Positions 9,571-12,462 of a DNA stretch of 64,000 nt are shown here, piece after piece (within the stretch, counting starts at the first letter, position 1; the number at the start of each line of letters is the position of its first letter). The translations under genes were made by a program, and so were the position numbers. Below the pieces are notes generated by a model. It had not been told where the DNA came from. It saw only the letters and a program-made list of their open reading frames with translations, and did no database searches. The stretch covers positions 124,001-188,000 of the forward strand of contig JAHEIL010000001.1 of NCBI GenBank assembly GCA_024639405.1. Reading direction: 5' to 3'. Source of the DNA: Crocinitomicaceae bacterium. Its GTDB lineage: Bacteria > Bacteroidota > Bacteroidia > Flavobacteriales_D > Crocinitomicaceae.

Positions 9571-10818
9571 TCACAATAACATATTTACTGGATTTTCCAT
9601 GTAATTTTTAAACGTTTGTAAGAATGCAGAACCTGAAGCGCCATCTACAACACGATGATCACAAGACAACGTTACTTTCATAACATTTCCAGGAACAACT
9701 TGTCCGTTTTTAACAACAGGAACTTCTTTAATTCCACCAACAGCCAAAATACAACTATCAGGAGGATTCACAATTGCAGTAAATGCTTCAATTCCAAACA
9801 TTCCCAAGTTAGAAATAGTAAATGTATTTCCTTCCCAATCTGCTGGTTGTAGTTTTTTATCTTTTGCTTTTTGCGCAAACTCTTTTACTTCAGCTCCAAT
9901 TTGAGTCAATCCTTTTGAATCCGCAAAACGAACAACCGGAACTAACAATCCATCTTCAACAGCTACAGCTACACCGATATGCACGTGGTGATTTTGACGA
10001 ATTACATCGCCTAACCATGCACTGTTTACTGTTGGATGTTGTTTCAAAGCCATTGCTACAGCTTTCACTACCATATCGTTGAAAGAAACTTTAACCCCTT
10101 CAATAGCATTTAAGGATTTACGCGATTTTATCGCATTATCCATATCAATGTCCATTGTTAGGTAAAAATGAGGCGCAGTAAATTTACTTTCAGCCAAACG
10201 ACGTGCAATTGTTTTTCTCATTTGAGAAATCGTCACATCTGTAAATGATTCTTCACCAGCTGGTGTAGCAGAAAATGAACGTTGAGCTGGAGTATAAGGA
10301 ACATAATGATCTACATCTCTTTTTACAATTCGACCTGCTTCACCTGTACCAGCAACTGTTGAAATATCAACACCTTTTTCTTCTGCTAATTTTTTAGCTA
10401 AAGGAGAAGCAATCACTCTTCCATTTGCGTTTGATGATGGAACAGCAGCCGGAGTAGAAACAGGAGTCGGAGTAGCTTTTACTTCAGCAACTGGTGCTGG
10501 AGCTGCTTTTACTTCTTCTTTCATAGCTTCAACAACTGGCGCAGATCCTGCATTTACGATCAATGCACTAACATCTTCACCTGCATCACCGATAATTGCT
10601 AAAATAGCATTAACAGGAGCCGTTTTACCTTTTTCAACACCGATGTGTAATAAAACACCATCGTAAAAAGATTCAAACTCCATCGTTGCTTTATCCGTTT
10701 CAATTTCAGCTAAAACTTCACCTGAAGCAACTTTATCACCCACTTTTTTAGTCCATTCAGCAACGACTCCTTCCGTCATCGTATCACTCAATTTAGGCAT
10801 GTAAATAATTTCGGCCAT
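9571..10818 (-). CDS. pdhC: Pyruvate dehydrogenase E2, dihydrolipoamide acetyltransferase
   Basis: 415 residues in the canonical order: one lipoyl domain (residues 1-78, lipoylated Lys43 in ETDKATMEF), an Ala/Pro/Val linker, the peripheral subunit-binding domain (about 132-168, ASPLAKKLAEEKGVDI) and the catalytic domain (about 190-415) with His388 and Asp392 in CDHRVVDGASG. The enzyme transfers the acetyl group from lipoyl to CoA and forms the core of the complex. It lies 11 nt downstream of E1-alpha in the same operon. E1-beta is not between them, so it must be encoded elsewhere. A branched-chain or 2-oxoglutarate E2 is less likely, given the PDH-type E1-alpha partner. Confidence 0.93.
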   Translation of the reverse strand: MAEIIYMPKLSDTMTEGVVAEWTKKVGDKVASGEVLAEIETDKATMEFESFYDGVLLHIGVEKGKTAPVNAILAIIGDAGEDVSALIVNAGSAPVVEAMKEEVKAAPAPVAEVKATPTPVSTPAAVPSSNANGRVIASPLAKKLAEEKGVDISTVAGTGEAGRIVKRDVDHYVPYTPAQRSFSATPAGEESFTDVTISQMRKTIARRLAESKFTAPHFYLTMDIDMDNAIKSRKSLNAIEGVKVSFNDMVVKAVAMALKQHPTVNSAWLGDVIRQNHHVHIGVAVAVEDGLLVPVVRFADSKGLTQIGAEVKEFAQKAKDKKLQPADWEGNTFTISNLGMFGIEAFTAIVNPPDSCILAVGGIKEVPVVKNGQVVPGNVMKVTLSCDHRVVDGASGSAFLQTFKNYMENPVNMLL

Positions 10819-10829
10819 TTTTGTATTTT

Positions 10830-11882
10830 TTAATATTCTTTAATGTAAGGATAATCTGTTTGCATGTATACGTCTTCGTATAATTCATGTGCTTCAGGAT
10901 ATGGAGAATTTTCAGCAAATTCAACTGATTCTTCTACTTCTTTTTTCACCCAAGCATCAATTTCTTTCAATTCAGCTTCAGTTAACCATTTATTTTCTTG
11001 AATCACACGTAAACAATGTTCAATTGGATCTTGTGTCATCCATTCAGCAACTTCTTCTTTTGACCTGTATTTTTGTGGGTCTGACATTGAATGTCCTTTG
11101 TATCGGTAAGTACGGACATCCAACAAAGTTGGTCCATCACCTCTACGTGCTCTCTCAGCCGCTTCTGCAATTGCTTCGTGAACTGCTTCAGGACGCATAC
11201 CATCTACAATTTTAGAAGGCATTTCATAAGATAACCCAATTTTAGATAAATCTGTAACATTTGTTGTACGTTCAACAGATGTTCCCATAGCGTAATTATT
11301 GTTTTCAATGATGTAAATCACTGGAAGCTTCCAATTCATCGCCATATTAAACGTTTCGTGTAACGCACCTTGTCGTACAGCGCCATCACCCATAGAAACT
11401 ACAGTCACATTATCTGTTCCGTTGTATTTCTCAGCGAAAGCAACACCTGTTCCCATCACAATTTGAGCACCAACGATTCCGTGACCACCCATAAAGTTTT
11501 TTTCTTTATCAAAAAAGTGCATAGAACCACCTTTCCCTTTTGAACAACCAGTAACACGACCATATAACTCAGCCATTAAAATACGTGGATCTGTTCCCAA
11601 AGCAATTGGATGCGCATGATCACGGTAAGCTGTCATGTGTTTATCATCAGGTCTACAAGCACTAGCAGTTCCTGCTACAATCGCTTCTTGACCAATGTAT
11701 AAGTGACAAAAACCACCGAATTTTTGTTGAATGTACAACATACCCGTTTTGTCTTCGAATTTACGAATCAACAACATGTCTTTGTACCATTTCACATACG
11801 TTTCTTTTGAAAACTTAGACTTACTAGCAACAGATGCTTTTTTTGTCGTTTTCGATGGAGAACTTGCAGTTTTTACAGCCAT
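10830..11882 (-). CDS. pdhA: Pyruvate dehydrogenase E1 component, alpha subunit
   Basis: 350 residues. The thiamine-diphosphate motif starts at GDG (166-168 in SMGDGAVRQGALHE) and ends at ENNNYAMGTS around 193-202. The first 25 residues are a Lys/Ser/Ala-rich extension, probably flexible. YRYKGHSMSDP near residue 260 is the conserved E1-alpha phosphorylation-loop region of the family. With E1-beta it decarboxylates pyruvate and acetylates E2. It is first in the pdhA-pdhC operon, behind a clear -33/-7 promoter and a perfect 17-bp palindrome, so transcription is probably controlled. Confidence 0.94.
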   Translation of the reverse strand: MAVKTASSPSKTTKKASVASKSKFSKETYVKWYKDMLLIRKFEDKTGMLYIQQKFGGFCHLYIGQEAIVAGTASACRPDDKHMTAYRDHAHPIALGTDPRILMAELYGRVTGCSKGKGGSMHFFDKEKNFMGGHGIVGAQIVMGTGVAFAEKYNGTDNVTVVSMGDGAVRQGALHETFNMAMNWKLPVIYIIENNNYAMGTSVERTTNVTDLSKIGLSYEMPSKIVDGMRPEAVHEAIAEAAERARRGDGPTLLDVRTYRYKGHSMSDPQKYRSKEEVAEWMTQDPIEHCLRVIQENKWLTEAELKEIDAWVKKEVEESVEFAENSPYPEAHELYEDVYMQTDYPYIKEY

Positions 11883-11910: not shown

Positions 11911-11939
11911 CAAATATAGAAAAAACTAATTTACAACAA
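11911..11939 (-). promoter_or_regulatory. Promoter of pdhA (TTG-N18-TATATTTG)
   Basis: On the minus strand TTG at 11939-11937, 18 nt spacing, then an exact TAnnTTTG at 11918-11911, 28 nt before the pdhA ATG. Both elements and the spacing fit the Bacteroidota housekeeping promoter. Confidence 0.75.
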
Positions 11940-11944
11940 TACTA

Positions 11945-11961
11945 AGTGTAAAATTTACACT
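11945..11961. promoter_or_regulatory. Perfect 17-bp palindrome, candidate operator upstream of pdhA
   Basis: AGTGTAAA and TTTACACT, 8-bp arms around one base, centred about 47 nt upstream of the expected pdhA start of transcription and 5 nt beyond the -33 TTG. It has no T-run, so it is unlikely to be the cdd terminator. A second perfect palindrome, AACAATTAATTGTT, lies at 11974-11987, directly after the cdd stop codon. Confidence 0.55.
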
Positions 11962-11988
11962 AAGAAATATTTAAACAATTAATTGTTA

Positions 11989-12462
11989 TTAATCCGATCC
12001 AAAAGAAAAGGGCAACAAATCTTTTGCAGCATTAAATATCAAAGTTTTTCTATTTTGAGAAACAAGTACAACGCGATAAGGTTCATTTTGTCTAATTTCA
12101 GATTCAACCATGACTTGTCTACAACCGCCACAAGGAGCAAGAATCTTTTCAAATGGCAAGAGATCACCTTTTGCAACAATGTAAATACTAACAATCGGTT
12201 CATTTGGGAAATTAGCGCCTACATGAAATAAAGCTACACGTTCAGCGCACAATCCAGATGGATAAGCTATGTTTTCTTGATTACTACCAATAACAACATG
12301 ACCGTTTTTCAACAAAACACTCGCTCCTACTTTGAATTTACTGTATGGAGCATAAGCGTTTTCACATGCTTCAAATGCTTTTTCAATCATTTTTTGATCA
12401 AGATCACTTAATTCTGTCCAATCATTTATATGAAAATAATTAATAGAAAGTGTTTTTTCCAT
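11989..12462 (-). CDS. cdd: Cytidine deaminase
   Basis: 157 residues. Zinc and catalytic residues are all present: Cys72 and Glu74 in SGLCAERVALF, Cys111 and Cys114 in APCGGCRQVM. This is the small tetrameric CDA type, converting cytidine and deoxycytidine to uridine forms in pyrimidine salvage. The N-terminus is about 20 residues longer than the shortest family members. It is upstream of pdhA on the same strand, but the 106-nt gap holds a separate promoter, so it is probably its own unit; the start is divergent from the 12513 lipoprotein gene, 50 nt away. Confidence 0.95.
   Translation of the reverse strand: MEKTLSINYFHINDWTELSDLDQKMIEKAFEACENAYAPYSKFKVGASVLLKNGHVVIGSNQENIAYPSGLCAERVALFHVGANFPNEPIVSIYIVAKGDLLPFEKILAPCGGCRQVMVESEIRQNEPYRVVLVSQNRKTLIFNAAKDLLPFSFGSD

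Follow-up and report, generated by a model that had tools for sequence, protein, structure and literature searches.

The window, a stretch of 64,000 nucleotides, contains between cdd and pdhA the palindrome AGTGTAAA-A-TTTACACT, which is very probably an operator of the NrtR family of regulators, as predicted here. We consider it likely that this operator is read by the protein NrtR1 and not by a paralogue, and our preferred explanation as a whole, which we hold to be probable, is that NrtR1 acts through it to control pdhA as one of a set of sugar and central-carbon genes that includes both pyruvate dehydrogenase (PDH) loci. That NrtR1 activates pdhA is a more finely balanced proposition, to which we give an even chance.

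The palindrome upstream of pdhA and the motif within it

The initial annotation described a palindrome with complete 8-bp arms, placed 5 nt from the -33 element of the promoter of a pyruvate dehydrogenase gene, and inspection of the sequence confirmed this description (Table 1). Both arms are exact and the next flanking pair is mismatched. The center of the palindrome lies 71 nt before the pdhA ATG and 35 bp upstream of the -7 box, and its edge is separated by the 5-nt gap from a TTG which is presumably the -33 element. The naming of the gene for PDH E1 alpha and of the E2 gene is borne out by their matches to TIGR03182 and TIGR01349; these genes are 11 nt apart and were judged by position to form a common operon. 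The gene at the upstream boundary, cdd, is not thought to be a target.

Table 1. Coordinates of the features discussed in the text; positions without a locus prefix are those of the window.
Feature	Position	Strand	Basis or remark
Perfect palindrome, core of the proposed NrtR1 operator	11945..11961	.	GTGT-N7-ACAC at 11946-11960
21-bp operator as scored by the weight matrix	11943..11963	.	score 25.6; next best in the window 8.4
pdhA, pyruvate dehydrogenase E1 alpha	10830..11882	-	TIGR03182, 455.6 bits (cut-off 393.85)
Pyruvate dehydrogenase E2 (dihydrolipoamide acetyltransferase)	9571..10818	-	TIGR01349, 478.7 (cut-off 445)
cdd, cytidine deaminase, upstream boundary	11989..12462	-	NF004064, 96.8 (cut-off 74)
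TTG, likely -33 element of the pdhA promoter	11937..11939	-	read from sequence
TATATTTG, -7 box (TAnnTTTG) of the pdhA promoter	11911..11918	-	present before pdhA in 23/23 genus upstream regions compared
nrtR1	L121:15299-16042, contig C11		Pfam domains
nrtR2	L116:1033-1734 and L122:5286-5987		immediately follows a putative GH3 glycosidase gene

It had also been claimed that a perfect palindrome is unlikely to occur here by chance, and in general this was not supported. The window contains four perfect palindromes with 8-bp arms and a 1-nt spacer, compared with 3.2 expected from an order-1 Markov model, and palindromy by itself is unremarkable and carries little weight. The pdhA palindrome is special because it has the form GTGT-AAAATTT-ACAC, an instance of GTGT-N7-ACAC that matches a regulon, and not because it is palindromic. 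The window holds this single copy of GTGT-N7-ACAC, with 0.45 expected. The predicted recognition unit is GTGT-N7-ACAC with tolerated changes and is not TGTAAAnTTTACA, the core named initially. The latter was rejected as a motif: its five other exact copies are scattered in the genome, four of them intragenic and one between convergent gene ends, and in the search of relatives that had been suggested its enrichment, across 60 of them, was not clearly above the reversed control. The mostly intragenic placement of these copies, together with the background of about three palindromes of such quality per window, might be taken to mean that the pdhA palindrome arose by chance or is a remnant that has no regulatory function. 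We regard this as very improbable, since the site and its distance to pdhA are identical in three species and the motif is common to the unlinked pdhB and to other carbon genes. A terminator or RNA hairpin was also rejected, since the sequence lacks the pattern of a terminator and folds unremarkably (z -0.59).

A weight matrix was constructed from 33 distinct sites, none of them at a PDH gene. Intragenic hits, weak intergenic hits (L121:8638 and L217:9220), all cotH sites and a gapA site (L214) at the edge of a contig were left out. One nrtR1-promoter site was kept that counts as intragenic only because of an overlapping open frame. Scored with this matrix, the pdhA palindrome stands far above the runner-up in the window (Table 1), and 3 Mb of random sequence nowhere gave a score as high as those of the PDH sites. 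The window's own genome has such sites in front of nrtR1/badF, zwf-pgl-edd-eda, gapA (truncated by the contig boundary), pckA, a susCD pair, an alpha-amylase/T9SS operon, pdhA-E2 and the divergent pair pdhB|etfBA; the names eda and susC/D, like cotH, tex and PLP acyltransferase below, were assigned by eye from the sequence. When two mismatches were allowed, 186 motif hits were found in 26 genomes compared with 167 for the reversed control (18 versus 7 in the own genome), and strict palindromes numbered 35 versus 10. The two-mismatch scans are therefore mostly noise and were rejected as proof, and we rely instead on placement, conservation and the matrix.

NrtR1 as the candidate regulator

The initial annotation knew of no regulator of pdh in Bacteroidota, and a candidate can now be named. 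Relaxed motif searches in the three closest genomes led to sites around an NrtR-type gene, nrtR1, which is placed between a gene for a BadF-type kinase and the Entner-Doudoroff operon zwf-pgl-edd-eda. NrtR1 and a second protein, NrtR2, are the two family members returned by a Pfam search of the own genome with NrtR_WHD. NrtR1 contains NUDIX (28.8 bits, cut-off 21.1), NrtR_WHD (93.5, cut-off 27) and AraR_C (49.4, cut-off 23.8) domains, and thus possesses the architecture of the NrtR/AraR proteins, an N-terminal Nudix domain followed by a C-terminal winged helix of the NrtR type. Compared by eye with the Nudix signature GX5EX7REUXEEXGU, the protein has R63-V64 in place of RE and E67-L68 in place of EE, so that two glutamates are lost and the signature is impaired. 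A structure prediction made with 11 close sequences gave a mean pLDDT of 51.6 and was set aside.

The nearest solved structure is that of AraR from Bacteroides thetaiotaomicron (5bs6, E 9e-48), and the recognition helix reads DKRNFR in both proteins. As described in PMC4666351, the DNA contacts by which AraR specifies GTGT include Lys179, Arg180, Asn181 and Lys184 of its recognition helix, and Table 2 of that paper gives a 27-bp co-crystal duplex with GTGT-N7-ACAC. NrtR1 keeps the equivalents of Lys179, Arg180 and Asn181 and has Arg in place of Lys184. AraR (BT0354; PDB 5bs6, 5dd4, 5ddg, 5deq; PMC4666351) resembles NrtR1 in its Nudix and winged-helix domains, its helix, its operator and its sugar-linked neighbourhood. 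It differs in that AraR controls arabinose genes, whereas NrtR1 adjoins zwf-pgl-edd and alpha-glucan genes and has an altered pocket: the equivalents of Arg34 and His131 are kept, but the Arg86 region is replaced by a 15-residue insertion, Phe36 is replaced by Ala and GGF by GDL. The identification of NrtR1 as an arabinose-responsive AraR was rejected on these grounds, and because of the changes at the Arg86 region, Phe36 and GGF arabinose is an unlikely effector. An NAD-type identity was rejected as well, NrtR1 scoring 129.9 bits against the NF050029 equivalog cut-off of 400. It shares family and fold by sequence with the NrtR of Shewanella oneidensis (3gz5/3gz6, E 3e-16), but NAD-type NrtR proteins are NAD regulators that respond to ADP-ribose, and the sites attributed to NrtR1 precede sugar and central-carbon genes.

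A different possibility is that a paralogue, NrtR2 or NrtR3, is the chief reader of the operator, or that several proteins of the NrtR family read it. NrtR2 is encoded in the same genome and is 40% identical to NrtR1, and its gene has two NrtR-like sites at a distance of 10-16 kb. However, the NrtR2 recognition helix is DKANFRKK, with Ala at the Arg180 position, and its operator probably differs from that of NrtR1. The 20-kb stretch around nrtR2 has no site except one at susC, 10 kb off, and one that is intragenic. Further, the motif is carried by nrtR1 and its neighbours, and none of the five genomes whose family members are all of the NrtR2 type has a pdh site where examined (pdhA in 4/5, pdhB in 4/5). 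We consider reading by a paralogue unlikely and return to NrtR1.

The pairing of NrtR1 with this operator may be assessed independently in more distant relatives. An NrtR1 alignment scan of named genomes provided 570 loci, of which the best 80, from across Bacteroidota, were taken; the nearest among these best 80 is 100% identical and bears the name Crocinitomicaceae, and the scan also showed NrtR1 homologues in relatives that can be cultured, such as Cryomorpha ignava and Marivirga. The out-of-genus set from these 80 comprises 70 loci (L229-L299 minus L233), of which 69 have at least 100 nt of upstream DNA. An exact GTGT-N7-ACAC lies no more than 200 nt upstream of the regulator match in 54 of these 69, while each of the other spacings from 3 to 12 was found in 0-5 of the same loci; the loci were picked partly by the recognition-helix peptide, and a common operator is therefore to be expected among them. 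The site at L265, TTAGTGTAAATTTTACACTTG, differs at one base from the 21-bp site of pdhA when the latter is written on the strand of that gene. Among all 80 best loci, those of the genus included, the neighbours are a BadF-type kinase (63), a protein of the beta-phosphoglucomutase type (46), GH65 (34), gapA (18), zwf (13), susC (12) and edd (11), and by these gene neighbours the NrtR1 branch of the family is a predicted sugar regulator.

The site at the two PDH loci and the candidate regulator

A pdhA gene was found in 23 of the 26 genus genomes (all but G011, G019 and G022), and the upstream region and N-terminus of the G011 gene were recovered at a contig edge (L321), so that 24 upstream regions were scored, five of them separately after they had been missed by the initial name pattern. 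The site is present in eight of the 24. In the window genome and in its two closest species, G025 and G006, whose PdhA proteins are 99 and 97% identical to its own, the arms and the distance to pdhA are identical, the single difference being the central base in G006. G016, G004, G008, G024 and G011 carry AGTGTCATTTTGACACT or a near variant. Nothing similar was found in the other 16 upstream regions, where the top matrix score was 3.9, and in other genera of the family the site is present in none of 11 genomes. The initial proposal of a regulatory site stands to the extent that the palindrome is operator-like, keeps its place in the two closest species and is common to other central-carbon genes; it does not extend to the pdhA genes of these 16 genomes or of the 11 from other genera.

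The gene for PDH E1 beta, pdhB, lies on a separate contig from pdhA and is divergent from etfBA. In 24 genomes scanned, the site precedes pdhB in eight, with scores of 20.8-27.0, and these are exactly the eight that have it at pdhA. The other 16 score -0.9 or lower, with little upstream DNA in G018 (40 nt) and G003 (159 nt). This joint presence and absence at two unlinked PDH subunit genes is the strongest single argument for a role of the motif in pyruvate dehydrogenase control. The site on the pdhB side lies 162-166 nt from the pdhB ATG in the window's clade, and there it may serve etfBA, also or instead.

When NrtR1 is scored as an NrtR_WHD match of at least 90 bits, it is present in 14 of the 26 genus genomes, and in seven of the eight with PDH sites. 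The exception, G016, is 85% complete, and its gapA and sugar-phosphate isomerase sites lie on a contig that stops roughly 3 kb short of the position that nrtR1 should occupy by comparison with G008. With G016 set aside, none of the ten genomes that lack NrtR1 and whose pdhA was examined has a pdhA site. Six genomes (G018, G014, G009, G002, G001 and G017) contain NrtR1 but no pdhA site, and PDH would therefore be an optional member of the regulon. G027, the single family genome from another genus that has a close NrtR1, likewise has no pdhA site.

A tree of PdhA and PdhB from 22 genomes places the genomes with sites in two clades (supports 99 and 100) that are split by species without sites. 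G009 and G002, which possess NrtR1 and lack the site, group with the window's clade (support 100). The two clades also differ in the distance from the site to the -7 box, which is 35 bp in the window's clade versus 57-58 in the other at pdhA, and 70-71 versus 57 at pdhB. The simplest reading is that both PDH loci were probably recruited twice, independently; repeated loss together with movement of the site may be an alternative. This tree has deep nodes with supports of 55-82 and a midpoint root, and it was built on the regulated genes themselves.

Other sequences occur at pdhA in some of these genomes. In G021 and G005, which have no NrtR-family gene, and in G023, which has only the NrtR2 type, a different palindrome, TAGGTGTTTTAAAACATCTA or similar, lies just upstream of the pdhA promoter (L046, L048, L050), and a similar half, GATGTGTTTT, precedes pdhB in G021 and G005. 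Possibly another regulator took over at pdhA in these species. In G018 and G014 (L039, L040), both of which contain NrtR1, ACAACTATAGTTGT and ACAACGATAGTTGT lie upstream of pdhA where other clades have the NrtR-like site.

A proposed scheme for NrtR1 and its relation to known systems

In the scheme that we propose, a dimer of NrtR1, with an inactive Nudix sensor domain and a winged helix, would read GTGT-N7-ACAC by placing one recognition helix on each half-site, as in AraR. It would control its own gene, zwf-pgl-edd-eda, gapA, pckA, susCD, alpha-glucan genes, pdhA-E2 and pdhB. Following the precedent of AraR, the ligand-free dimer would bind DNA and a sugar-derived ligand would release it. 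The ligand-free dimer would repress the catabolic genes from sites across the core promoter and, when the sugar signal is absent, would activate the PDH and PCK genes from sites upstream of the -33 element. The site, the regulator, their shared motif, its conservation and its placement are read directly from the genomes; binding, ligand release and the signs of repression and activation are what we infer. On the AraR precedent and the positions of the sites, we prefer a model in which this dimer represses sugar catabolism and activates PDH and PCK. Sites lie 15-16 bp from the -7 box at zwf, 23-26 at gapA and 22-25 at susC, across the core promoter, and upstream of the -33 element at pdhA and pdhB (distances above) and at pckA (118-119 bp); 4/7 gapA, 1/4 susC and 1/4 pckA promoters have no strict -7 box and hence no distance, and the pattern missed 5/12 zwf loci, those of G000 and G008 being covered elsewhere. 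An argument from helical phase was discarded as too thin: the distances of 35, 57 and 118-119 bp agree roughly in phase, but the 70-71 bp at pdhB do not fit.

With the same operator and the same regulator, pdhA might instead be repressed, for example by NrtR1 covering upstream promoter DNA that is contacted by the alpha subunit of polymerase, so that PDH would be induced together with sugar catabolism. Characterised members of the NrtR family are repressors, as reported in PMC4666351; PDH acts after the products of the Entner-Doudoroff pathway, and a gap of just 5 nt separates the operator from the -33 TTG. However, all the PDH and pckA sites are upstream of the -33 element, 35-119 bp from the -7 box compared with 15-26 bp for zwf, gapA and susC, and the 57-58 bp at pdhA in the second clade is far for a steric block. 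Repression of pdhA is a real but lesser possibility, and activation remains the sign that we prefer.

NrtR1 would thus be a central-carbon regulator comparable to Cra, HexR and RccR, with the dual logic of Cra and RccR. We propose, tentatively, that a sensor of sugars with a Nudix fold, and not a protein of the LacI or RpiR type, runs central carbon metabolism with this Cra-like logic in the Bacteroidota lineage of the window, and that two related lineages independently wired in both unlinked PDH loci. Cra/FruR of Escherichia coli acts at promoter sites to repress genes of glycolysis and at upstream sites to activate those of gluconeogenesis; it belongs to the LacI family, and protein and operator are unrelated to those of NrtR1. 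RccR and HexR are RpiR-family proteins, with an RpiR-type HTH and a sugar-isomerase domain. No RpiR-type domain is present in NrtR1, for which Pfam gives only NUDIX, NrtR_WHD and AraR_C. As presented in PMC5489143, RccR and HexR of Pseudomonas resemble the scheme for NrtR1 in that PDH (aceEF), pckA, gap and Entner-Doudoroff genes are coordinated through palindromic sites with opposite outcomes by locus, RccR regulating aceEF, pckA and gap and switching its repression between loci. RccR offers the nearest published logic to our model.

The NrtR-family sugar regulators described for Bacteroides in Ravcheev 2013 (PMC3878776) are AraR and XylR, and the global carbon regulators treated in PMC5507952, HexR, FruR, CceR and GluR, are all in Proteobacteria. 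Our literature search, which did not extend to the 2008 NrtR paper, turned up neither a pdh regulator described for Bacteroidota nor an Entner-Doudoroff/PDH regulon under an NrtR-family protein, and there may be an earlier mention. The family and its operator are already known, and what is new is the predicted regulon and its wiring. If correct, the scheme would extend the Nudix-winged-helix family beyond NAD and pentoses to the junction of pyruvate and acetyl-CoA, and would add another unrelated solution to the task performed by HexR and Cra. Close species with and without pdh sites make the rewiring of this regulon directly testable.

The less understood targets in the own genome are a cotH-like pair, exbB, a gene for a PLP acyltransferase and a tex-like gene. 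An NrtR1-like site lies between two divergent cotH-like genes (L125:2469; also L060 and L062) and is kept in three species. On contig C42, outside the window, another (L064:1501) is found 98 nt before a gene of the exbB/tolQ type and is weaker in G006. In two species, sites scoring 24.3 and 20.4 (L318:2972 and L322:3007) precede a gene resembling PLP-dependent acyltransferases.
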